IMG/VR virus record: IMGVR_UViG_3300040751_003304
Span: 1-36,501 of that record
DNA: 36,501 nucleotides
Source: a virus
Direction: 5' to 3' (one strand)
Part shown: piece by piece, positions 2,632 to 34,519 of the stretch
How positions within the stretch are numbered: the first letter of the stretch is position 1
Layout of the letters: each line of letters opens with the position of its first letter
Program-made: the position numbers and the translations under genes
The notes under the pieces: model-generated
Databases searched by the model: none
What the model saw: only the letters and a program-made list of their open reading frames with translations
What the model was told of the DNA's origin: nothing

Positions 2632-4350
2632 ATGGGAGATATGCGTATCGGCAAGGCCGGCGTGAATAATCTCGTCGACATTATCTACTCGGACTCGGAC
2701 AAGTTTCAGTTCGTCCGCGAGCTCGTCCAGAACTCGATCGAAGCAGGCGCCTCGAAGATCAAGATCTCTTATGAGAGGCAGGGCTTCGAGATGTATAAGG
2801 TGAAGCGCTTCCTCATCCAAGACGATGGCAAGGGGATGAGCGTCGAGGAGCTCGGTGAGTTCTTAAACAAGTTTTCCTCAAGCGGGAAAGAGGTCGGAGT
2901 CGACAAGAACTATGGGATCGGCGCGAAGACCTCGACGATCCCCTGGAACAAGCTCGGCGTCGTCTTCGTCTCATGGACTTCCGAAGACGATCCAGGCGCG
3001 ATGGTCTGGCTTCATGAGCAGCGCTCTGGAATCTATGGTGCGCGCGAGTTCGTGGACGAAGAAGAGGACGTCGTCGAAGTTCTACCCCTCGATCAGTACT
3101 ATGAAGAAGTGGGCTACGAGTATGGGGTCGACTTTCGTCTCTTGCGAGAAGACTGGAATCACGCGAGCGGATCCGCTGTCCTGCTCTTGGGGAACAAGAA
3201 GCTTGAGGACACTTATAATCCGCAGATCTTAAAAGAAAGAGCCTCCAAGGAGGAATACAGTAGATATTTGTCGAGGAGGTACAAAGAGCTAACTGTACCT
3301 ATACAGATCTCGCGTTTCGCATACGGTGAATCGCGCGACAATCAAATGACCGACCTAGTCAAGAGTCTATCTGGCTTAGACGAAAAGTATATCGAGTCTT
3401 CTGGGTTTTTGGTCCGAGATGACCAAGTGTCGATCGAATGGTTCTTACTGAAGTTCAATAAGAGCATGAGACAGTATAGCTTCGGGAGCGGTTTTATAGC
3501 GCTTGAAAATAAGGGGGAACTCTTCCAGCACAGGAGCCATCCGCAGACATGGCGGGCTTTTGGCATCCATCAAAAGAGTATCTGGTCTCGCCTTTATATC
3601 GTGGTCAAAGATAGCAGTTTGACTCAGAACGCCGCGCGAACCGCTCTCAAGAATAGCGACACTCATGAGGCTCCCGACTTCGCCACCTTCGGCGAATACT
3701 TCCGAGCGAATCTCCCAGAGTATCTCCTGAACGAACAACGGAAGCTCATCGCGGAGAAGGCGAATAATCTAGAGATCGACGAGTATCGGAAGCGCCTCGC
3801 GAGCGAATACGGCAATCGATTTAATGATGTCCTCGGTCCAGGCGGCGCGAAGAAGAGGACAGCAGCGAAGAAGGCCAAGCCAAAGCAGGGCGAGCTCGAA
3901 GGCGTCACCGGCCAAAACAAAACACCGCCCGGTCATGACAACCGAAAGAGAAAGACCGGATTTCCAGAGTGGCGATGGGATGGATATCACGAGGAAGATA
4001 GTGTCGGTTATTGGGTTCCGCCTGGGCGAGAGTATCCCGACGGGTGCATTTTCCTAAATGCCGCTTATTCAGTGTTCACAGAGATCAAGCAGCGCTTCGC
4101 TGGTCGGATCGGTGAGGAGTATCAAGAGCTCGGCGCGGGCGTTATCCACAACACGATTGGAGCTGACTACGCGACGAAGATCTCACACGCTCTCCGTCAT
4201 AAGAAGGTCGCGCGCTGGGGAGTGCGCGGAGTCAATGAGCAGCTTCTATCCGACGGAGCTCTCACCATGATCTCGCTCGGATTCTTCGGGATTGAGCACG
4301 CGATTGAAATCGCTCTCCGTCGAGAGCTTAAAGGGGGATTCCTTGGTTAA
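2632..4350 (+). CDS. GHKL-family ATPase, MORC/MutL/Hsp90-like
   Basis: This 572-residue protein has an N-terminal Bergerat-fold ATPase. The N-box is FVRELVQNSIEAG (catalytic E30, Mg-binding N34), motif G1 is DDGKGM (64-69), and the lid motif is YGIGAKT (94-100). The layout, with a wide transducer-like middle region (about 150-400), resembles MORC-type and related para-MORC ATPases rather than histidine kinases. A lysine-rich linker (about 404-440: KKRTAAKKAKPKQ) leads to a distinct C-terminal domain (about 445-572) that I do not recognise. It heads an operon and overlaps the SSB gene by 8 bases, which points to a DNA-linked role such as replication, repair or countering host defence. ATP binding and hydrolysis is near certain; the biological role is open. 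Confidence 0.85.
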   Translation: MGDMRIGKAGVNNLVDIIYSDSDKFQFVRELVQNSIEAGASKIKISYERQGFEMYKVKRFLIQDDGKGMSVEELGEFLNKFSSSGKEVGVDKNYGIGAKTSTIPWNKLGVVFVSWTSEDDPGAMVWLHEQRSGIYGAREFVDEEEDVVEVLPLDQYYEEVGYEYGVDFRLLREDWNHASGSAVLLLGNKKLEDTYNPQILKERASKEEYSRYLSRRYKELTVPIQISRFAYGESRDNQMTDLVKSLSGLDEKYIESSGFLVRDDQVSIEWFLLKFNKSMRQYSFGSGFIALENKGELFQHRSHPQTWRAFGIHQKSIWSRLYIVVKDSSLTQNAARTALKNSDTHEAPDFATFGEYFRANLPEYLLNEQRKLIAEKANNLEIDEYRKRLASEYGNRFNDVLGPGGAKKRTAAKKAKPKQGELEGVTGQNKTPPGHDNRKRKTGFPEWRWDGYHEEDSVGYWVPPGREYPDGCIFLNAAYSVFTEIKQRFAGRIGEEYQELGAGVIHNTIGADYATKISHALRHKKVARWGVRGVNEQLLSDGALTMISLGFFGIEHAIEIALRRELKGGFLG

Positions 4351-5663: not shown

Positions 5664-6176
5664 ATGTCAAAATCCGCGCGCTCTTGGTTAGCCTCACTGA
5701 TCTTCTTGACGATGGTCGTGGGGCTGATTTTTTTTCTCACGTTCTTGGAGATCCCAGACAAGAACAAAGACCTTATCACCTCGATCATAGGTATGCTCGT
5801 CGGCTCGATCTCGATGGCGATCTCAATCTTCGTCGGTCGCGATCCCGATGACGTCGCCGCGCTGAAGGGGCAGATTGAAGAGCTCTCCGACGATCGAAAC
5901 ACGCTCATCGCTCGGCTCCGCGATGCGCAGATCGATAAGGATATCCTTCGGAAGCAACATGAAGGGCTTCAGGCGTTGGTTATCTCCAAGCTCTCCGTGT
6001 TCGCAGAGGACAAGCGACTCGGCGAGCTCGCGGCGCTGGCGGACGAGCGCTCGATGCCAGAAGAGGTCGCGCGATGGATACCAGGCGAACGAGCTCCGCA
6101 GATCCCAGCGACGATGACGCCGCTCCCTAAGAGATCGTCGCTCGACGATGTCTTTGGAGGAGAGGATAAGAGCTAG
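5664..6176 (+). CDS. Two-helix membrane protein with cytoplasmic coiled coil
   Basis: This 170-residue protein begins after GGGGGA (5654-5659). Two membrane helices are visible at about residues 9-28 (WLASLIFLTMVVGLIFFLTF) and 36-58 (ITSIIGMLVGSISMAISIF), then a coiled coil at 64-105 (VAALKGQIEELSDDRNTLIARL onward) and a proline-rich tail. Holin-like topology is possible, but a soluble tail this long is more like a membrane anchor or sensor. Its stop codon overlaps the terL stop on the other strand by two bases, ending the rightward early operon. Confidence 0.75.
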   Translation: MSKSARSWLASLIFLTMVVGLIFFLTFLEIPDKNKDLITSIIGMLVGSISMAISIFVGRDPDDVAALKGQIEELSDDRNTLIARLRDAQIDKDILRKQHEGLQALVISKLSVFAEDKRLGELAALADERSMPEEVARWIPGERAPQIPATMTPLPKRSSLDDVFGGEDKS

Positions 6177-7552
6177 AAGCCTCCGGCGCCTTCCCAAGGC
6201 TTCCGCGTCTTCTTCGGTGGAGAGTAGGAGCGGCGCGGCTTCTCCTTCTTCTCAAGAGCCTCGTCGTCGTTCCACCTCCACATGATGCAGTCATAGCGGA
6301 GAGCGTCCAGCGGGTCTTCTCTGCCGTCCTTCACTGGCGACTCTTTGCGTTTATCCCACCGATAGCTCTCCAGCGCTTTCCGCAGACTGTTCCCGCTCGC
6401 CTTGCGTCCAGCTTCCCAGACCTCGCGAGTGACTCGATAGTTCCGTCGCCAGATCGAGCGCTTGAGGCGCTGCACTCCGTTGATGATGTCGACGCGGACC
6501 GGCGAAGTCGTATGACGGAGACGCAGACCGATACCGCGCGGCGGAGCTCCGGAGAGGACGCGGAACGAGGAGAGGGCGGTCTGATCGTTTCGAGCGGCGC
6601 CCGCTTTGTCACCGCATCCCGCGTCGAGCCAGATACGCGGACCAGGCGCGCTCGCCTTGTGCTTCCTTGGCCAAGCGATGTTGAGGATTAACCGCGCGAG
6701 CTCTTCGAGCGTCACCTCATGAGGGTTCAGCTCTCCGCAGATGATGTCCGCTCCGAGATCTGGATCATGCGCGATAATGAGGACGGATGGTTTACGGAAT
6801 CCCCAGTCAACCGCGATTCTCCCCTCCATCGTCGGCTTGTACTTCCAACCGTCGACGATATTCTCCTCCGACCATTCGGGATATACGGTTCCCGTCGGCG
6901 GACGCGGTTCATTCATGATCATCGCCGCGCGCTCTTCAGGGGGGAGCGCTTCGGTCGCCTTGAACCAAGCGGCGGAGAGATTGCGCTTGTTCGCGTAGCT
7001 TGTGTGGTAGATCGGCTGGCAACCGTTATCTTCCGCCATCCGGACCCACCAGGCATCGGCGACTGGTAGGCCGACCATAACGAGAATCGGCGAGGGTCCA
7101 GATCGAAGACGACCAAGCGCCTTCTGGGCGACCTCTTCGTTCATCGTCTGGGCTTCATCGATGAAGGCGGCGCCGCTGACGTTGATACCCTCAAGTGGGT
7201 TGTGTGACGAGTCGCGCGTGCCTGGTCTGAAGTATGCGCGACACCAGACCGAAGAGCCCGTCGAGGGATCGGTCCACGTCCCCTTCAGTTGATTCCACTG
7301 CCAGCCAAGCGGGCCAAGCCACTTCTCTATCTCGGGTGCTAGGACGGTCCGATATCTCGGAGCCGTGTCAGTGATGAGCAGAGACGACGAGCCAGGGCGG
7401 AGCTTGCTCATCATGAGCAGACCGAAGACCAGCGCGCTGGTCTTACCTGATCCCCATCCGGCGCGGACCGCGATGAAGGTCTCTTCATCGACGAGAGCGC
7501 GAACCAAATCCTTCTGTAATGGGTTGAGCTTCATAGGATCATTGTCTCTCAT
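6173..7552 (-). CDS. terL: Terminase large subunit (ATPase and nuclease)
   Basis: This is the packaging motor, which translocates DNA into the prohead and cuts it. From ATG 7552 it is 459 residues. Walker A is AGWGSGKT (31-38), Walker B FIDEA (130-134), and the RNase H-like nuclease has its acidic residues in RIAVDWGF (D249), IWLDAGCGD (D310) and REDPLDALRY (D413/D416). The reading frame is open far upstream to 7963, but that part is antisense to the portal gene and is rejected. ATG 7534 is an alternative start; neither has a good ribosome-binding site. CATAAT at 7568-7563 (minus) could be its -10 box. The gene stands alone on the minus strand, between rightward operons and away from terS, which is unusual. 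The function is secure. Confidence 0.95.
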   Translation of the reverse strand: MRDNDPMKLNPLQKDLVRALVDEETFIAVRAGWGSGKTSALVFGLLMMSKLRPGSSSLLITDTAPRYRTVLAPEIEKWLGPLGWQWNQLKGTWTDPSTGSSVWCRAYFRPGTRDSSHNPLEGINVSGAAFIDEAQTMNEEVAQKALGRLRSGPSPILVMVGLPVADAWWVRMAEDNGCQPIYHTSYANKRNLSAAWFKATEALPPEERAAMIMNEPRPPTGTVYPEWSEENIVDGWKYKPTMEGRIAVDWGFRKPSVLIIAHDPDLGADIICGELNPHEVTLEELARLILNIAWPRKHKASAPGPRIWLDAGCGDKAGAARNDQTALSSFRVLSGAPPRGIGLRLRHTTSPVRVDIINGVQRLKRSIWRRNYRVTREVWEAGRKASGNSLRKALESYRWDKRKESPVKDGREDPLDALRYDCIMWRWNDDEALEKKEKPRRSYSPPKKTRKPWEGAGGF

Positions 7553-7570: not shown

Positions 7571-7591
7571 ACTGAACACTTGGGAGGTTCT

Positions 7592-9013
7592 ATGTCGTAC
7601 AAGACAGGCTATCAAAGAAGGCGCGATCTGCCCTATCAGGGCGCTCCAGCGCTTCCCCCTCTCGGCGCGCGAGGGATCACCGGAACCTACCTCTCCGGCG
7701 GACAAATCACCGGCAAAGAGCAGAACCTTCGCCTCACTGGTCTTCAGTGGGTACGCGAAGCGGAGGAGATGCTCTCGACTGATCCAGTGATTCAAGCTTC
7801 TTGGCGAGTCTTGAAGCAGACCCTTCTTGAGGCGTCTTGGCGATGGATACCAGGCGACGAGGACGACGCGCAGTCGAAAGAGTTCGCGCGATATGCCAAC
7901 GAATGTTGGGGGCTCGACGGTTATCCAGGGATGATGTCTCTCTCTTGGGAAGAGCAGCTGCAATATCTCTGGGAGTTCGCGCCGATCGGCTACCGTTACG
8001 CGGAAGAGATCTACAAGATCGCCGACGACGAGAACGGGACGCCGCGCGTCTGGCTCGACCTCTACGCCGACCGCGAGCCTTCAGCGCATTTACGCTGGGA
8101 GTCGCTCGACGGTCAGACCCTCGAAGCGGTCTGTCAGCAGCTCCGCGGGAACACTCTCCCACCGGAGCCGATCCCAGCTTCTAAGCTGCTCCTCCTCACC
8201 CTGAACCGCACCGGCTCAAACTTCGAGGGGCGCGGCCTTCTTCGTCCTGCGTGGTGGTGGTGGCGATTCAAGCAAAGAACCGCGAACCTTCTCGGCGTTG
8301 GTATGGAGCGTTGGGCTGTCGCGACTCCTCGCGTCGCTGTCGATCGGTCGGCGGCTGAAGCGGCTGGACTGACTGATACCGATATCGATGAGATGATCGA
8401 CCGCGCGGCGGCGCAAGCTCAAGCGTATATCGCACAAGAGCAGAGCTTCCTCGTCGATAATCCGGTCGTCTCCTTCCAGACCTTCGGCGAGCAAAAGCTC
8501 GACAGCTCTCACGCGCTCGCCACCATCAAAGAGTGCGATCACCAGCTCTCGATGGCCTTCCTTGCTTCGTTTATGAATCTCGGAACCACGGACACGGGAT
8601 CGAGGAGCGTCGGCGAAGTTCACCTCTCTGTTTTCCGTCGATCCGCGCTCAATCTCTGCGACATGATCTCCTCTTCCGTCGGCGGGATGGATCGGAGAGG
8701 CGGCGGGACAATCGGGCGCCTTCTGCGATGGAACTACGGAGAGTGTTCACCCTCCCAGCTCCCTCGACTCGTCCACTCTGGTCTTGATGCTGACGAGCTC
8801 GCGGAGAGCCTCACCGCTCTCGCTCCGCTGGTCCAGTTCGGTCTCCTCACTCCAGAGGACGATCTTGAGCGCGCGATCAGAGAGCGGATCGGCGCGGGTG
8901 AGCTCCCAGAAGAAGCGGCGCGCTCTTACTTCGACCGCGTCAGCGCTGGTCTCGGTGGAGGAGCGACCGCTCTTTCAGAGCGTTATCGCGCGATGAAGAG
9001 AGGGATCAAATGA
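7592..9013 (+). CDS. Portal protein, Mu gp29-like (DUF935 type)
   Basis: The portal is the dodecameric ring at the special vertex through which DNA passes. The 473-residue protein starts at ATG 7592, five bases after GGGAGG; an upstream TTG at 7580 is less likely. The middle region with RGLLRPAWWWWRFKQRT, and later SHALATIKECDHQLSMAFL then NLGTTDTGSRS, follows the pattern of the Mu-type portal family. It opens the rightward virion operon and overlaps the protease/scaffold gene by four bases. The neighbouring protease, MuF-like protein and G-like completion protein are also of Mu type, which supports the call. Confidence 0.88.
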   Translation: MSYKTGYQRRRDLPYQGAPALPPLGARGITGTYLSGGQITGKEQNLRLTGLQWVREAEEMLSTDPVIQASWRVLKQTLLEASWRWIPGDEDDAQSKEFARYANECWGLDGYPGMMSLSWEEQLQYLWEFAPIGYRYAEEIYKIADDENGTPRVWLDLYADREPSAHLRWESLDGQTLEAVCQQLRGNTLPPEPIPASKLLLLTLNRTGSNFEGRGLLRPAWWWWRFKQRTANLLGVGMERWAVATPRVAVDRSAAEAAGLTDTDIDEMIDRAAAQAQAYIAQEQSFLVDNPVVSFQTFGEQKLDSSHALATIKECDHQLSMAFLASFMNLGTTDTGSRSVGEVHLSVFRRSALNLCDMISSSVGGMDRRGGGTIGRLLRWNYGECSPSQLPRLVHSGLDADELAESLTALAPLVQFGLLTPEDDLERAIRERIGAGELPEEAARSYFDRVSAGLGGGATALSERYRAMKRGIK

Positions 9014-14902: not shown

Positions 14903-15366
14903 GCCAAGGAGTCGCGAGCGCTTTCTCTTTCCTCATCAATCGCCTCGAGGCGCTCATCCCGAAGACCGACGAGTCGCAAGGATTCGTCTGTGTTGATCCT
15001 GCTTCGGGGATGGAGCTGCTAACAGATCGCCGACCGAATACGCTCCGCCTCTTTGAGCTCCGCACGACCACTTTCCCCCATGACGATGGGCAAGCGGGAA
15101 TCACTGGAAGGAAGCGACTCACCGCCGAGCTCCGCGTCCGCTATGATATCCCGCGAGACGTCGGCCTTCTGGAGCGCATCGTCGGAGAGGATAGCTCACA
15201 GCTGGTCAACTCCTTGCGCGATCCCGCGTATAGTCTAGCGACGACTGGGATCACCTCACTGATCACCGGAGAGGCTACGACCACTCCGCTCCTTGATGAG
15301 GCAGGAAACCCAGCGGCGCTCCTTCTCATTGTTCCGTTCGACCTTCTCTTCTCGGAGGCCTTCTGA
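14899..15366 (+). CDS. Tail terminator / tail completion protein candidate
   Basis: A 155-residue protein in the slot directly before the tail tube gene, where long-tailed phages encode the tail terminator that caps the growing tube. It has an N-terminal helix (AFSFLINRLEALIP) followed by alternating strands (LRLFELRTTTFP, RKRLTAELRVRYDIP, ALLLIVPFDLLFSEAF), the usual layout of these small alpha/beta proteins. It overlaps neighbours by 4 and 1 bases. Function is inferred mainly from gene order. Confidence 0.65.
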   Translation: MSQGVASAFSFLINRLEALIPKTDESQGFVCVDPASGMELLTDRRPNTLRLFELRTTTFPHDDGQAGITGRKRLTAELRVRYDIPRDVGLLERIVGEDSSQLVNSLRDPAYSLATTGITSLITGEATTTPLLDEAGNPAALLLIVPFDLLFSEAF

Positions 15367-16661
15367 TGGCAGTTACACATCGTTCACTCTCGGTCGCGGT
15401 CGAGAGCTCTTTCGGATCGCTTAGCTCTTTGACTGGAGCTCCAAGCGCTACCGGTCTCTCCTTTATCTCGATCCCCTGTGAGAGAGATCCCATCGTCGTT
15501 CCAGGCGAGCCTCCGGTCTCGGAGCGCACAGAGGCGCGCGACGGTCCTCACGGTCTCCCTCCGGAGCTTGATACGACATACATCGCCGGAACCAAGCAAC
15601 AGCGCAGAACCGGAACCGTCACCGTTCGATGCGACTTTACCACGCTCGGCACTGGTTCAAACTACGCTGGGACCGCTCTCGGTCGTCTCCTCTCCGCTGG
15701 ATTCTCGACCACGATCCCAGGCGCGGAGAACGACGCGGTGAGCGCGGCGGTGGGGACGAATGAATACACCCCGACCACTCTCGCGAGCTACAAGCTCGGC
15801 GGCCTCTTCGGGATCGAGATCAACGGGCGCGCAGAATACGCCCATGTTACTTCCAAGAACGGAAGCGGGACGGGGAACATCGGTTACTCTCCAGCGCTCT
15901 CCCGCGACCTCACCACATCCGACACCGTCCGTCTCCTCCAGACTTGGTACACGGCCAAGGGAGACAACAGCGGATCCGTCGCGAACAGCCTTGCCTTCCG
16001 CGTCGATGGCGTCGGCGTCCTCTCCTATGCTTTCGGATGCAAGCTTGAGAGCCTCTCAATCTCGATCGACGGCGGGCGCTTGATGGGTGACTTCGTCTTC
16101 CAAGCTGCTCATATTGAGGACGATCACGGGAACGCGACTGGACCGGTTGAACCACAGACGACCGATGGAGCGACTCCGCATTTTCGGAGCTGCTATGTCC
16201 TCCTCTCCGACGCGGCCTCGACCTCGCGAACGGATATCGGGACCGATAACGGAGACGAACACGGGCGCATCGCTCTCTCCGTCTCCGAGTTCAGCGCGAC
16301 GATCACTAACACTCTCACTCCGATCGGTCAGAGCTCTTCTCTGATCGGGATGAGCGACATGGAAGTAAGTGATCAGACCGTAGAGGTCTCGCTTACCGTC
16401 GACTCTCCGAATACGACGATCAACAATGACTTCCGCGACGCGGTCGTGAGAGATCTCCTTGTGGGGACTGGTCCAGTCGGCGACGGTCAGGGGATGGCGC
16501 TGAACGTGCCAGGCGCTTACCTGACAGTCGATCCACAGATCCGAGTCATCGACGGAGAGATCGTTCAGCAGAGTCTCACCTATGCGGCTTCTCGCTTCGG
16601 TGGTGATGCGGGAACCGGCGACGCGGGAGGGACTCCTCTTCGGATCGGATTGGGGCTCTAA
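15366..16661 (+). CDS. Major tail tube protein
   Basis: A 431-residue protein rich in Ser, Thr, Gly and beta strands, located between the tail terminator and the tail chaperone, where the tail tube gene lies in long-tailed phages. GTVTVRCDFTTLGTGSNYAGT, FRVDGVGVLSYAFGCKLESLS and the late QTVEVSLTVDSPNTTIN fit a tube-fold core with added surface domains; at 431 residues it is larger than typical (150-260). No sheath gene lies before it, so the tail is probably non-contractile. The start ATG shares its A with the previous stop. Confidence 0.75.
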   Translation: MAVTHRSLSVAVESSFGSLSSLTGAPSATGLSFISIPCERDPIVVPGEPPVSERTEARDGPHGLPPELDTTYIAGTKQQRRTGTVTVRCDFTTLGTGSNYAGTALGRLLSAGFSTTIPGAENDAVSAAVGTNEYTPTTLASYKLGGLFGIEINGRAEYAHVTSKNGSGTGNIGYSPALSRDLTTSDTVRLLQTWYTAKGDNSGSVANSLAFRVDGVGVLSYAFGCKLESLSISIDGGRLMGDFVFQAAHIEDDHGNATGPVEPQTTDGATPHFRSCYVLLSDAASTSRTDIGTDNGDEHGRIALSVSEFSATITNTLTPIGQSSSLIGMSDMEVSDQTVEVSLTVDSPNTTINNDFRDAVVRDLLVGTGPVGDGQGMALNVPGAYLTVDPQIRVIDGEIVQQSLTYAASRFGGDAGTGDAGGTPLRIGLGL

Positions 16662-16663
16662 GA

Positions 16664-17176
16664 ATGGCGTTCATATTCTCCACGAGCACCGATCAGACCG
16701 TTGAAGTTGTCTCAACCGTTGACCCGTCGGTCATCGGGACTGAAGAGGCTAAGGTCGAGTATCTCTCGACGCGCGACGAGAGCCTCTTCGATTCGACGGA
16801 AGGGGCAACGCGTTTCACCCTTCGAGCGCTATCTCCTCAAGCTAGAGAAGACGCGGAAGTTGAGGCGGGCGCCTATTCTCGATCGGAGCTCGGGAGAATC
16901 CTCTGGACAGAGCAACCCGACGACCCGAAGGAGCGCGCGCGCTGGCAGCATGATCTTCCAGAAGATGAGCGGCGAGCGCTTGGCGAATACAATCGTTATC
17001 TGTCGCGCGTTTATCGGGAGATGCTTCGCGCTGGTCTCGTCTCCATCGAAGGTCATGACGGTGACCCGCTGGAGCTCGTCGACTCGATCCGTCCGGATCA
17101 TCATCGTCAAGTTTTGATGGGGGAGCTCGTCGCGCATATTCAAGCGCTCTCGCTTTTGCCACCCGCGGGAAAATAG
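16664..17176 (+). CDS. Tail assembly chaperone, short (G-like) product
   Basis: A 170-residue acidic, helical protein that ends at TAG 17174-17176. It lies between tail tube and tape measure genes, the fixed position of the lambda G/GT type chaperone that keeps the tape measure protein soluble. Its last codons contain the slippery heptamer GGGAAAA, and the -1 frame is open beyond the stop to 17598, so a minority of ribosomes should make a longer fusion. The family sequence itself is variable; gene order plus the frameshift signal make the call strong. Confidence 0.85.
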   Translation: MAFIFSTSTDQTVEVVSTVDPSVIGTEEAKVEYLSTRDESLFDSTEGATRFTLRALSPQAREDAEVEAGAYSRSELGRILWTEQPDDPKERARWQHDLPEDERRALGEYNRYLSRVYREMLRAGLVSIEGHDGDPLELVDSIRPDHHRQVLMGELVAHIQALSLLPPAGK

Positions 17177-17598
17177 CAGCGGGAGCCAGTGTCTGGATCG
17201 CCTATGCTGGTTCCCGCGCGTGGAGTTGTGAACAATGCAAAGGCGACCCGACACTAAGACGAAGGCGAGGCAACTGCGGCGGAGCTTTCCGCGCTGGTCT
17301 CCCCTGGCTCAAGCGAGACGAGCAAGGCGCCTATGTCATGGCCTATCGGATCGCGCCAGACTCCGACCCGTCTTGGGGAGATCAGCGGGTGAGGCGCTGC
17401 CCGATCGCCGACATGAATCGACTCTCTCCGATGGTCTCCAGCTATCGCGCGCACTGCGCTGGGCTCGGGAGTCTTCGAGACTTTTACCGCGAGCCTTCTT
17501 GCGCGGTGATAGATTTATGGACGGAGCTCCACACTCAAACCGAGCTGATGAAGGCTCGCGCTCGACAGCGCGCACACGAGGAGGCGAGTAATGGCTAG
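16664..17598 (+). CDS. Tail assembly chaperone, frameshifted (GT-like) fusion, join 16664-17173 and 17173-17598
   Basis: At GGGAAAA (17167-17173) a -1 slip avoids TAG 17174 and continues without stops for 141 codons to TAG 17596-17598, giving a 311-residue fusion. The extension reads IAAGASVWIAYAGSRAWSCE, then a segment with four cysteines (CEQCKGD, NCGG and C of RRCPIAD), and helical ends (VIDLWTELHTQTELMKARARQ). Without the slip, 17177-17590 would be a 414-base hole in a packed operon with no well-placed start. The only late ATG in that frame, at 17338, lacks a ribosome-binding site. The fusion end overlaps the tape measure start by 8 bases. In lambda, GT recruits the tape measure to the tube protein. 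Confidence 0.85.
17167..17217 (+). promoter_or_regulatory. -1 programmed ribosomal frameshift signal
   Basis: The zero-frame codons are G GGA AAA TAG, so GGGAAAA is a textbook X-XXY-YYZ slippery site; lambda uses GGGAAAG. Five bases downstream starts a stem of 11 pairs, GCGGGAGCCAG (17179-17189) with CTGGTTCCCGC (17207-17217), including one G-U pair and a 17-base loop. Spacing and stem are those of known stimulatory hairpins. This is seen directly; the efficiency is unknown. Confidence 0.88.
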
Positions 17599-19507
17599 CG
17601 GGGGAAAAGTCGAGATACAGGTCGAGCTTGAAGGCGGCGGCAAAGTTCAAGGCGCTCTTAACAAGATCGGAAGAGGCGCCGAAGTCGCTGGAGGTAAAGC
17701 AGCGCAGGTAGGAGAGGCGCTCTCGGCGAGCTCGAATGTGATGACCGCGTCTTTAGGTAATGTCGTCTCGACCGTTGGGACACTCACTGAAGGGATCGGC
17801 GGCCTATCCACTGCTTCAAAGACAGCGGGCACAAGCTTTACTGCGATGCTCGGTCCTATCGCCGCGATCGGTACAGCTGTCTTCGCTGTGGTTCAAGCGG
17901 TGCGTCAATATATCCGAAATTCTCAAGACCTTGAGACGAGAATGGAAGCGCTCAAGGCGGCGGCGTCAGAGTTTACCAGTGTTATGGAGCGTCTCGCCGA
18001 CGAAAATATCACTCTGACAAAAGCCGAGAGACAGAGGCTGATGCAGCTGACGCGCGTATCAAAAGCGCAGACTGAATATATACAGAAGATCAGAGAAGGC
18101 GAAGGCGTCGAAGGTCAGAGACTCCAGCGAGTGCAGAAGGCTTTTGCTCAAGCTCAAGCTGAAGTCGACATGATCCGGAAGCGGACGCACACTGAAGCGT
18201 ACTTCCTACAACAAAGTGTCGCAGCTAGAGCGCGGCTAAGAGTCGCGACGATGAATCTCAATGAGGCCGAAGAGGCTCTTGATGGGATGACTCAAAAGGC
18301 GATGCAATCGCGCCGAGAGCAGACACAGCTAGTTGAGAAACTGATAGAAACTAGAGGTCGCGCCGCTCTTCAGAAGCAACAAGAAGCAGCGACTAAAGCT
18401 GTTGAAGATCAACTGCGGGCAAATAAACAGATGCTAGCGCTCGGAGAGCGCTTTCAAAGGGAAGCGCTCTCAATAGAGGCGTCGACAACTTCACAAAGAA
18501 TCGCTCTCATTCGTCGAGAGCTCGCGGAGAGACAGCGACTCCTTGTGGAGTCGGCTGCTAGTGATCAAGAGTATGAGAAAGCGTCCTGGCAAGCGGAGCG
18601 AGTCGCCAGCGCGAAGATTCGAGCACTCCGCAAAGCCGATCGAGCGCAGAGGGAAGCGGGGCGCGCGCAAGAAGCAGCGGCTAGAAAGGCGGCGGCTGAT
18701 CGAGCTTTTGCCGATGAGCAGAAGCTTGCAGAAGCTCGGATTCGGCTGGCGACAAAAGGGATCGAGCAACAAAGACAGCTCATCGAACTCCGCTTTCAGA
18801 GCGCCCAAAGAGCGGCGGCGAATGAGACTCAACTGGAGACCGCCCAGATTAATCGCCAGCGCGAGCTCATGGCTCTTGAGGAAAAGCAGGAAGCCGACCG
18901 GCGCGCGGCGGAGATGCAACGGATCGACGCTCTCCAGCGCTCGATTGAGTTGACCAGGCAAGAGGCACAAGCGCTTCAAGAACTCTCCTCCGTCGATATG
19001 TCAAAGATCACATTAGCGGTTGAAAACTTCGGGCAAGGGCTGGTCTTCGCCTCACTCGCTGCACTCCAAAGCGGAGAGAGCGTCTCCGTCGCAGTGGGTG
19101 AAGCGCTCAAGGCGATCGCGCTCCAAGCTGGAGTCGAAGCGATTATGCAGACCGCTAAGGGGACAGCGGCGCTCTTCACGCCAGGGGGACAAGCGGAGGC
19201 GGCAGGTCACTTCAAGGCGGCGGCCTTCTTCGGCGCGGCAGCGGTCGCCGCTGGTTCCGCTGGTTCTGCACTCTCCGCGAGCGGTGGAGGCGGCGGAGCT
19301 GGAGCGTCTCCCACTGGAGCTGCTCAATCGATCAGAGATCGAGACTTCGATCGAGACGAAGAGCGCGGCGGCGTGACGATCAACGTCAACATGGGTCAAG
19401 CGGTGATATACGATACTAAGGCGGCGGCAGAGAGAGCCTTCGCTGACCGCGTCGTTCAAGCTATCAATACTCCGCGTCGCGGCGCGGTCCGTCTAAGGGG
19501 GGCATAA
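17591..19507 (+). CDS. Tape measure protein
   Basis: This 638-residue protein should set tail length and be ejected with the DNA. It has a glycine-rich start, a hydrophobic segment at about 80-105 (MLGPIAAIGTAVFAVVQAV), then a very long helical, glutamine/alanine/arginine-rich coiled-coil region (about 106-465). A second hydrophobic, glycine/alanine-rich stretch (about 480-575) precedes a C-terminal tail (GVTINVNMGQAVIYDTKAAAERAF) common in tape measures. At about 0.15 nm per residue it predicts a tail near 95 nm. It directly follows the frameshifted chaperone, as expected. Confidence 0.9.
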   Translation: MASGGKVEIQVELEGGGKVQGALNKIGRGAEVAGGKAAQVGEALSASSNVMTASLGNVVSTVGTLTEGIGGLSTASKTAGTSFTAMLGPIAAIGTAVFAVVQAVRQYIRNSQDLETRMEALKAAASEFTSVMERLADENITLTKAERQRLMQLTRVSKAQTEYIQKIREGEGVEGQRLQRVQKAFAQAQAEVDMIRKRTHTEAYFLQQSVAARARLRVATMNLNEAEEALDGMTQKAMQSRREQTQLVEKLIETRGRAALQKQQEAATKAVEDQLRANKQMLALGERFQREALSIEASTTSQRIALIRRELAERQRLLVESAASDQEYEKASWQAERVASAKIRALRKADRAQREAGRAQEAAARKAAADRAFADEQKLAEARIRLATKGIEQQRQLIELRFQSAQRAAANETQLETAQINRQRELMALEEKQEADRRAAEMQRIDALQRSIELTRQEAQALQELSSVDMSKITLAVENFGQGLVFASLAALQSGESVSVAVGEALKAIALQAGVEAIMQTAKGTAALFTPGGQAEAAGHFKAAAFFGAAAVAAGSAGSALSASGGGGGAGASPTGAAQSIRDRDFDRDEERGGVTINVNMGQAVIYDTKAAAERAFADRVVQAINTPRRGAVRLRGA

Positions 19508-26914: not shown

Positions 26915-29449
26915 ATGGCTATCAAGATCACAGGACCAATTGGTCAGGGTGGAGCAGGCGGCGCGGTGACTTCGGTCAACGGAGCAACCGGAGCCGTTAA
27001 CCTTTATGCAGACAACGCGACTTTAAACCTCGCTGGCGACGGGATCGTCGTCAATGGAGCGGGCGCGACGTCGACCCTCGACGTGGACAGCGGGACAACG
27101 GCGGGGAAAATCGTCAAGCTTGACGGTTCAGCTCGTCTCCCAGCGGTGGACGGATCACAGCTGACGAACCTTCCAAGCGCTCCCGTGACGAGCGTCAATG
27201 GCGCAACTGGAGCGGTCAACCTTTACGCGGACGATGCGACTCTCAATCTCGCCGGTGATGGGATCGTCGTCAGCGGAACAGGCGCGACTTCTACCCTCGA
27301 CGTGGACAGCGGAACGACAGCAAATAAGATCGTTAAGCTCGACGGGTCGGCCAGGTTGCCAGCGGTCGACGGTTCGCAATTAACGAATCTCCCAGCGGCG
27401 CCAGTGACGAGCGTCAACGGCGCGACCGGAGCGGTCAACATTTACGCCGATGATACGACGTTGAACATCGACGGAACCGGCCTAGTCTTGAGCGGAACCG
27501 GAGCGACCTCGACTCTCAACGCGGATGTCGGAACAGGGGCGAACCAGATCGTTCAGCTTGATGGGAGCTCGCGTCTCCCCGCTGTCGATGGTAGTCAGCT
27601 GACGAACCTTCCAAGCGCTCCAGTAACTTCGGTCAACGGCGCGACGGGCGCCGTGAATATCTACGCGGACGACACGACGCTAAACATCGACGGAACTGGT
27701 CTAGTCTTGAGCGGGACCGGCGCAACGTCGACTCTTAATGCGGACGTCGGGACAGGAGCGAATCAGCTCGTTCAGCTTGACGCCTCGTCTCGTCTTCCTG
27801 CTGTGGATGGCTCACAGCTGACCAACCTTCCGAGCGCTCCAGTGACGAGCGTCAACGGAGCGACCGGCGCGGTCAACATTTACGCCGATGATACTACGTT
27901 GAACATCGACGGGACTGGCCTGGTCTTATCAGGCACTGGCGCAACGTCGACTCTTAATGCGGACGTCGGAACGGGGGCGAATCAACTTGTTCAACTGGAC
28001 GCGAGCTCACGCCTTCCAGCGGTGGACGGTTCACAGCTGACCAACCTCCCTAGCGCGCCAGTGACTTCAGTCAACGGCGCAACCGGCGCGGTCAATATCT
28101 ACGCAGACGACACGACACTGAACATCGACGGGACTGGTCTGGTCTTATCAGGGACTGGCGCAACGTCGACTCTTAATGCTGACGTCGGGACGGGAGCGAA
28201 CCAGATCGTTCAACTTGACGCGAGCTCACGCCTTCCAGCGGTTGATGGTAGCCAACTGACCAACCTTCCGAGCGCTCCAGTGACGAGCGTCAACGGAGCG
28301 ACCGGCGTCGTGAATATCTACGCTGATGATACGACGTTGAACATCGACGGAACCGGCCTAGTTTTGAGCGGAACCGGAGCGACCTCGACGCTTAATGCGG
28401 ACGTCGGGACGGGCGCAAATCAGCTCGTTCAGCTTGACGCCTCGTCTCGTCTTCCCGCTGTCGATGGTAGTCAACTGACTAACCTTCCGTCGGCGCCAGT
28501 GACAAGCGTCAACGGTGCAACCGGAGCGGTTAATCTTTACGCGGACGACGCGACCTTAAATCTTGCCGGCGACGGGATCGTCGTCAGCGGAACGGGCGCG
28601 ACGTCGACCCTCGACGTGGACAGCGGAACGACAGCGAATAAGATCGTTAAGCTCGACGGCTCGGCGCGATTGCCTGCTGTCGACGGTTCACAGCTGACCA
28701 ACCTCCCAGCGGCGCCAGTGACGAGCGTCAACGGGGCAACGGGAGTCGTGAATATCTACGCCGACGATAGCACCTTGAACATCGACGGGACTGGTCTGGT
28801 TCTAAGCGGGACCGGAGCGACCTCGACGCTTAATGCGGACGTCGGGACGGGAGCGAATCAGCTAGTTCAGCTTGACGCGAGCTCGCGTCTCCCAGCGGTC
28901 GACGGCTCACAGCTGACGAACCTGCCGTCGTCTCCAGTGACAAGCGTCAACGGTGCAACCGGAGCGGTCAACATTTACGCCGACGACACGACGTTGAACA
29001 TCGACGGAACCGGCTTGACCCTTTCGGGAACTGGCGCGACCTCGACGCTCAATGTTGACGTCGGAACCGGAGCGAATCAGATAGTTCAGCTTGACGGCTC
29101 TTCTCGTCTTCCAGCGGTCGACGGCTCACAGCTGACGAACCTTCCAGGCGCTTCTCGTCCGACAGTCACCACAGACTCAAGCGGAACGAATAGCACGATC
29201 AGCAATCCAGCGGCGGGAACCCTCGAAGATATTTATCTCGTCTCAAATGGCGCGAGCGCTGTTACGATCACGCTCCCCACTGTTACCGGAAACAGCGGCT
29301 ATAAGGTCAACATCAAGCGGCTAGGTACTGCAAACGTCACGATCTCACCCGCGAGCGGGACGATCGACGGGGCGGCTTCACAGGTTCTTTCTGTCCAGTA
29401 TTCGGCCTATACGCTGACAACGGACGGAACGAACTGGCACATTATCTAG
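26915..29449 (+). CDS. Tail fibre built from ten 73-residue repeats
   Basis: An 844-residue protein: 17 residues of glycine-rich start (KITGPIGQGGAGGA), ten tandem repeats of exactly 73 residues, and a 97-residue C-terminal domain (RPTVTTDSSGTNSTISNPAA to TDGTNWHII). Each repeat begins VTSVNGATGAVN and ends RLPAVDGSQLTNLP. SVNG-TGAV motifs are common in phage fibres, where they are thought to form trimeric beta-structures. Two repeat types exist: LYAD.ATLNLAGDG (repeats 1, 2, 8) and IYADDTTLNIDGTG (3-7, 9, 10). The C-terminal domain likely ends the shaft or binds the tip proteins encoded next. Start ATG follows AAGGGGG. Confidence 0.85.
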   Translation: MAIKITGPIGQGGAGGAVTSVNGATGAVNLYADNATLNLAGDGIVVNGAGATSTLDVDSGTTAGKIVKLDGSARLPAVDGSQLTNLPSAPVTSVNGATGAVNLYADDATLNLAGDGIVVSGTGATSTLDVDSGTTANKIVKLDGSARLPAVDGSQLTNLPAAPVTSVNGATGAVNIYADDTTLNIDGTGLVLSGTGATSTLNADVGTGANQIVQLDGSSRLPAVDGSQLTNLPSAPVTSVNGATGAVNIYADDTTLNIDGTGLVLSGTGATSTLNADVGTGANQLVQLDASSRLPAVDGSQLTNLPSAPVTSVNGATGAVNIYADDTTLNIDGTGLVLSGTGATSTLNADVGTGANQLVQLDASSRLPAVDGSQLTNLPSAPVTSVNGATGAVNIYADDTTLNIDGTGLVLSGTGATSTLNADVGTGANQIVQLDASSRLPAVDGSQLTNLPSAPVTSVNGATGVVNIYADDTTLNIDGTGLVLSGTGATSTLNADVGTGANQLVQLDASSRLPAVDGSQLTNLPSAPVTSVNGATGAVNLYADDATLNLAGDGIVVSGTGATSTLDVDSGTTANKIVKLDGSARLPAVDGSQLTNLPAAPVTSVNGATGVVNIYADDSTLNIDGTGLVLSGTGATSTLNADVGTGANQLVQLDASSRLPAVDGSQLTNLPSSPVTSVNGATGAVNIYADDTTLNIDGTGLTLSGTGATSTLNVDVGTGANQIVQLDGSSRLPAVDGSQLTNLPGASRPTVTTDSSGTNSTISNPAAGTLEDIYLVSNGASAVTITLPTVTGNSGYKVNIKRLGTANVTISPASGTIDGAASQVLSVQYSAYTLTTDGTNWHII
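26966..29155 (+). repeat. Ten tandem 219-bp coding repeats
   Basis: Ten units of exactly 219 bases without a length change fill 2,190 bases. The protein is far better conserved between units than the DNA, with most differences at third codon positions. Repeats 8 and 9 reproduce the order of types seen in repeats 2 and 3, which suggests a past duplication of a block of about six units (repeats 2-7 and 8-10). Confidence 0.92.
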
Positions 29450-33927: not shown

Positions 33928-33953
33928 TTGACTTACGCTTAACGGTATGTCAA
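33928..33953. promoter_or_regulatory. 26-bp operator-like dyad with facing -35 boxes
   Basis: The site has symmetric halves TTGAC.TAC..TT and AA..GTA.GTCAA; ten of thirteen positions pair around a TTAA centre. TTGACA on the minus strand and TTGACT on the plus strand are -35 boxes, facing each other, although the matching -10 sequences (CAATCT minus, AACAGT plus) are weak. The dyad lies between the ribbon-helix-helix gene and the initiator gene and covers ATG 33947, which therefore is unlikely to be a start codon. Confidence 0.55.
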
Positions 33954-33985
33954 CAGTAAAAGAGGACGAGATGAAAGGAGGCAGG

Positions 33986-34519
33986 ATGGCTAGTCCGCCT
34001 TACGCTCCAGTCGAGGAGCATATAAGAGGAATCCTTCAAGACGTGCGCTTGAACCCGCTAGAGCGCTGCGCAGCAATCGAGCTCTATTATCACACTGACT
34101 GGAATACTCGACGGCTCAAGTGCCGAGGAGTGATCGCCGCGCATATCAGACGCACCATCGGTCGAGGGCAGACCGCAGCGAAGAAGACCAAGAAGAAGTT
34201 GGAAGAGCTCGGCTTCATCCAGGGGGACTACTTCGACGCGTCAGCTTGGGTCCGGTCAGAAGTGACTGGGCCGAAAACAGACCGGTCCGAAAACAGACCG
34301 GTCCGAAAACAGACCGGTCCGAAAACGGACCACCCCCCGTCCGAAAACGGACCACCCCCCGTCCGAAAACAGACCACCCCCCGTCCGAAAACGGACCACA
34401 ATACTTCTCTTACTTCTCCCTCTTCTCTTTCCCTCTCAAATCCAAGTCGACCCAAACAGCGCGCGAGCCAAGAAGAGGACCGCTTCGACGACTTCATGAA
34501 CTTCCTTGAGAACTACTAA
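33986..34519 (+). CDS. Replication initiator-like protein (lambda O-like role) with winged-helix N-terminus
   Basis: From ATG 33986, preceded by AAAGGAGG, the protein has 177 residues. The N-terminal 80 residues are helical with a winged-helix pattern: LNPLERCAAIELYYHTDWNT, GVIAAHIRRTIGRGQTAAKK, then TKKKLEELGFIQGDYF. Residues 92-140 are a low-complexity linker (PKTDRSENRPVRKQT, PPSENGPP) encoded by the iteron array. The C-terminus (EEDRFDDFMNFLENY) is acidic and may contact the loader or helicase. The next genes are a DnaC-like loader and DnaB, an order equivalent to lambda O-P. It should bind the iterons and open the DNA. The initiator role is inferred from architecture and context; family identity is not proven. 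Confidence 0.68.
   Translation: MASPPYAPVEEHIRGILQDVRLNPLERCAAIELYYHTDWNTRRLKCRGVIAAHIRRTIGRGQTAAKKTKKKLEELGFIQGDYFDASAWVRSEVTGPKTDRSENRPVRKQTGPKTDHPPSENGPPPVRKQTTPRPKTDHNTSLTSPSSLSLSNPSRPKQRASQEEDRFDDFMNFLENY
34271..34397 (+). repeat. Seven iterons inside the initiator gene; candidate replication origin
   Basis: CCGAAAACRGACC occurs seven times in one direction: 34271, 34287, 34303, 34319, 34341, 34363 and 34385 (first bases). The first four are 16 bp apart, the last four 22 bp apart, the longer spacing due to inserted ACCCCCC-type tracts. Most units sit in a dyad GTCCG-AAAA-C[AG]GAC. A pyrimidine-rich, lower-G+C stretch (34398-34440) follows. The layout parallels lambda ori, whose iterons and A+T-rich segment lie inside gene O. 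Confidence 0.78.

Follow-up and report, generated by a model that had tools for sequence, protein, structure and literature searches.

Characteristic of the G/GT tail assembly chaperones is a gene that undergoes a -1 shift and immediately precedes the tape measure gene. The tape measure protein is coated by G and the tail tube subunit recruited by T, while frameshifting sets the ratio of the two products (PMC5009743, PMC4493119). In lambda the slippery heptamer is GGGAAAG, described as highly shift-prone in E. coli, and the G:GT ratio is about 30:1 (PMC5009743). GGGAAAA is the reported -1 site in the tail chaperone genes of mycobacteriophage TM4 (PMC4626039) and Microbacterium phage Bush (PMC11749239). 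Mutants of TP901-1 gpG/gpGT show that infectious particles require both products (PMC4493119).

The locus described here lies in a 36,501-base virus record, the whole of which was analysed and is termed the window; coordinates are positions within it (Table 1). It very probably holds a tail assembly chaperone gene of the lambda G/GT type, expressed by programmed -1 ribosomal frameshifting. At the level of sequence this is supported by a slippery heptamer, a downstream stem, an open -1 frame under selection, conservation, and position before the tape measure gene. The mechanism is of a known kind; what is new is the family, with its cysteine-bearing T domain.

Layout of the G gene and its T extension

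The open reading frame of G ends CCC GCG GGA AAA TAG, and its homologues in relatives encode proteins of 168-174 aa. The reading G_GGA_AAA puts the heptamer in the phase needed for simultaneous -1 slippage. In the -1 frame the first codon is ATA at 17173 and the stop is the TAG at 17596-17598; the predicted GT fusion has 311 aa, with the peptide PPAGKIAAGASVW across the G-T junction. A sequence-only reading of the window had placed GGGAAAA immediately before the G stop, an 11-bp hairpin five bases further on, and a -1 frame open for 141 codons filling a 414-base hole before the tape measure gene. All of these were recovered, the hole being the 414 bases (17177-17590) between the G stop and the tape-measure ATG.

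Table 1. Features at and around the G/T locus
Feature	Position	Strand	Details
Conserved gene directly 5' of G	15366-16661	+	431 aa; a 428-440 aa neighbour in ten relatives
G gene	16664-17176	+	170 aa by normal decoding (G domain); ORF and translation
Slippery heptamer GGGAAAA	17167-17173	+	read G_GGA_AAA in frame 0
0-frame stop TAG of G	17174-17176	+	adjoins heptamer
T extension, -1 frame	17173-17598	+	141 sense codons and TAG; translation
Stem-loop, putative stimulator	17179-17217	+	five bases 3' of heptamer
ATG ORF inside T	17338-17598	+	86 aa; listed ORF
Tape-measure gene	17591-19507	+	638 aa; start overlaps T stop by 8 bases

Slippage at GGGAAAA can be predicted with high confidence from these features. 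Most ribosomes would terminate at the G stop and release the 170-aa G protein. A minority would pause at the stem-loop, where both tRNAs would slip one base back on G_GGA_AAA, and translation of 141 further codons would then yield the GT fusion. By analogy with lambda, many copies of G and few of GT would use the G part to cover the tape measure protein, T would recruit the tail tube subunit, and both G and GT would depart before the virion is complete.

Conservation of the slippery site

Eleven close relatives were found, four identical to the window over the G/T stretch and seven differing from it at 48-72 positions. The heptamer is unchanged in all seven. Substitutions 5' of it mostly affect third codon positions of frame 0, and those 3' of it mostly third positions as read in the -1 frame; between L001 and the window, for example, the latter comprise 22 third, 4 second and 3 first positions. 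This third-position bias, together with an alignment of T in which 32 columns are invariant among sequences 43-52% identical to the window, points to protein-coding selection on the T frame.

A census set of 113 distinct homologues, forming 57 clusters at 90% identity, was assembled from three further scans with the T extension; at least 233 matching contig stretches were returned in one scan with this query. The T homologues are 43-100% identical to that of the window. An in-frame X_XXY_YYZ heptamer is kept in every member, as GGGAAAA in 108 and GGGAAAG in five. The slippery site is therefore conserved in related phages, a comparison that the sequence-only reading had proposed as a check, and a disrupted heptamer with stops in the -1 frame, the combination named there as counter-evidence, was sought among the 113 and found in none.

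Eight residues (E, S, A, R, Q, V, L and T) are encoded by the codon before GGA, yet its third base is always G in the 113 homologues, a base that only the heptamer requires. The glycine codon of the heptamer is GGA in 37/37 clusters, while all four codons are found among the other invariant glycines of G and T; its lysine codon is AAA in 36/37, while the rest of the gene uses AAA and AAG equally. The 0-frame stop follows the heptamer directly in 111 of the 113 homologues and six bases later in the other two. A -1-frame stop abuts the 5' side of the heptamer in 32/113 and lies three bases further upstream in 35/113. In these 67 sequences the shift is thus confined to the heptamer and its edge, a span of seven to ten bases, and readthrough is excluded. 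Across T, the -1 frame is open in each of the 35 full-length clusters tested, while frame 0 contains further stops and the +1 frame is also interrupted by stops.

GGGAAA[AG] occurs ten times on the plus strand of the window, and thus the heptamer by itself proves little. The whole arrangement is conserved in 113/113 distinct homologues, which is more than chance provides. A second in-frame GGGAAAA (17602-17608) lies within the tape measure gene, six codons from its start; relatives do not conserve it, and it was set aside as a coincidence.

As the source is a metagenomic contig with no isolate, the break in frame could be ascribed to a sequencing or assembly error, the true gene being a single open reading frame. 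However, the same break recurs at the same heptamer in 113 distinct sequences from many samples, and another four contigs match the window exactly at this stretch; the probability of such an error is negligible.

Alternatively, T could be a separate gene that has its own start, or is coupled stop-to-start after G, with no frameshift. There is indeed an 86-aa ATG frame at 17338, and in the group of L056, L058 and L057 an ATG lies at or beside the heptamer (GGGAAAATGATG or GGGAAAATAATG), where reinitiation would be possible. Conserved residues of T in an alignment of 23 members (W8, W17, C19, C22 and RGNCGG) nevertheless lie 5' of 17338, so that T begins before that ATG, and the 86-aa frame as a separate gene is probably a mis-annotation. 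Moreover, in 42/57 clusters none of the start codons ATG, GTG and TTG occurs in the -1 frame ahead of the conserved W8, which, with the upstream -1-frame stops, makes independent T starts unlikely. A separate gene would also leave unexplained the fixed GGGAAA[AG], the constant G before it and a hairpin beyond coding needs. We consider it very unlikely that T is expressed in this way without frameshifting. In L056 (5980-6010), L058 and L057, the heptamer and hairpin are kept despite the adjoining ATG, and stop-start reinitiation could there make T besides the -1 frameshifting that we favour.

The downstream hairpin

The 11-bp stem of the window pairs 17179-17189 with 17207-17217 and includes one G-U pair. 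In the minimum free energy fold (-29.2 kcal/mol) it is lengthened to 14 bp, 17179-17192 pairing with 17204-17217, and the hairpin has z scores of -2.9 to -4.3 against dinucleotide shuffles. Between groups of homologues the stem sequence is wholly different and the pairing partner is kept, as illustrated by GCGGGAGCCAG in the window, TTGCCGCCGCTGTGTG in L022 and GCCGGAG in L036. By eye, the register of the helix also differs between groups. For this reason the clusters were compared with shuffles that keep the peptide, with synonymous codons drawn from the same gene, instead of by column-by-column covariation.

Against these shuffles, the region 3' of the heptamer forms a stronger fold than expected, with a mean z of -2.4 and p <= 0.05 in 25/37 clusters. 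The Stouffer score over the 37 clusters is -14.6, which is not a strict probability because the clusters are related. Seven control windows in G and T gave mean z values of -0.03 to -0.44. A downstream structure of the stimulatory kind is thus present at short spacing, though it is not universal. The L041 group (L041, L042, L048, L051 and L052) keeps the heptamer with no clear stem (z +1.7), and the hairpin is weak in a few other groups. The L041 group may use another stimulator or a longer-range structure, or may shift with lower efficiency. Few features of the gene are as rigid as the slippery heptamer, whereas the sequence of the hairpin drifts.

Genomic setting, the T domain and known systems

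The tape-measure copy of the window has no direct family match. Homologues at this position match PHROG 1538, tail length tape measure protein (L056, E 7.7e-9; L036, E 1.7e-7). In the relatives examined, a long open reading frame, of 630-830 aa where complete in most, has a start that overlaps the T stop or adjoins it, and the G/T pair is thus the immediate upstream neighbour of a tape measure gene. The conserved gene directly 5' of G gave no family match in Pfam, PHROGs and NCBIfam scans; from its position we infer a tail tube protein.

Several other features of the window were recorded. The large terminase subunit (6173-7552; PHROG terminase large subunit, E 4.9e-22) is encoded on the minus strand, in divergent orientation to the portal gene (7580-9013, plus strand) and the remaining head-tail genes, an unusual arrangement. 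A ThyX thymidylate synthase is encoded at 1776-2456 on the minus strand (Pfam Thy1, E 3.7e-46), and a GHKL ATPase domain (HATPase_c_3, E 2.2e-11) is carried by the 572-aa product of 2632-4350, an unusual neighbour for the structural genes of a phage. An 844-aa open reading frame (26915-29449), probably that of a tail fibre or another structural protein of similar kind, contains about nine 219-base repeats in tandem (27134-29152). At 34264-34399, within a putative replication initiation gene (33947-34519), there are short tandem repeats (CCGAAAACAGACCGGT, GTCCGAAAACGGACCACCCCCC), possibly an origin with iterons.

Searches of Pfam, PHROGs and NCBIfam with G and T, alone and across homologues, gave no convincing match; two of 12 G homologues weakly match PHROG 20192, tail assembly chaperone, at E 0.01, which is suggestive only. 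Sequence searches of the PDB with G and T returned no match. Fold searches of the PDB gave nothing significant for either, the sole known chaperone structure listed for G being YqbN (3klu, E 2.6). The model of T has a pLDDT of 85.5 overall, with confidence lowest around the first cysteines. Among viral models its fold matches one short unnamed UniProt protein of 84 aa (E 3.7e-3, 41% identity). As this is the length expected from a gene caller starting at the internal ATG, it supports the warning of truncated annotation. The expectation that ordinary gene calling would miss the fusion is plausible in view of this entry and of the 86-aa frame at 17338.

The G and T of the window have no homologue, as protein or DNA, in 50,697 GenBank phage records. 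Another T homologue gave a marginal match (E 0.1) in Enterococcus phage PEF9, which was rejected as it lies among small hypothetical genes and not in a tail module. Arthrobacter phages, which share a distant capsid protein, were also considered through Shrooms; the stretch of its record that was examined names no tail chaperone, and so it offered no comparison. No relative of T or of the capsid protein was found in 84,980 bacterial and archaeal genomes, and thus no host was found.

As neither G nor T convincingly matches any family or fold, one might suppose that the frameshift is real and that its product is something other than a tail assembly chaperone. Against this, the gene lies directly 5' of the tape measure in head-tail gene order, with the start overlap kept, and we know of no other role for two-product -1 frameshifting at this place in siphophages. 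The position is moreover the known location of G/GT (PMC5009743, PMC4493119). A different product is thus very unlikely, and a chaperone function for G and GT is the natural interpretation. A G/GT-like chaperone made by -1 frameshifting, the central proposal of the sequence-only reading, remains the best-supported account, given the 113 homologues and the position before the tape measure.

The same reading had drawn attention to a cysteine cluster in the extension that could bind metal. The cluster itself is well supported: C19, C22, C35 and C76 of T, candidate metal ligands, are invariant in the 23-member alignment, and the motifs W.C.QC..RGNC and R.CP[IV]A occur in 110/113 and 104/111 homologues, respectively. 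No convincing Pfam or PDB match identifies T as a zinc domain, and metal binding by these cysteines is plausible from their conservation. We put forward, tentatively and as a doubtful extension of the main reading, that T represents a novel domain for tail-tube recruitment, with four cysteines that probably bind metal and no relationship to known T domains, in a large uncultured siphophage group of which one subgroup (L056, L058 and L057) can also use stop-start coupling to make T. The conserved cysteine motif offers a testable handle on how T domains function.

With this family, a large and formerly unannotated group of siphophages would join those phages that set their G:GT ratio by -1 frameshifting. 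In such contigs, automated annotation truncates or drops the T domain just 5' of the tape measure gene.

Of the known systems, TP901-1 shares its gene arrangement with the window, and no sequence relation to it was found. TM4 and Bush share both the heptamer and the type of gene, although they belong to other phage lineages. Like lambda gpG/gpGT, the window gene lies directly before the tape measure and would yield two products through -1 slippage at a G_GGA_AAR site close to the 3' end of G; exactly the GGGAAAG of lambda is carried by five relatives. Unlike in lambda, however, the heptamer of the window abuts the 0-frame stop, a strong hairpin follows it and the T domain has four cysteines, and neither G nor T has a detectable sequence relation to its lambda counterpart.
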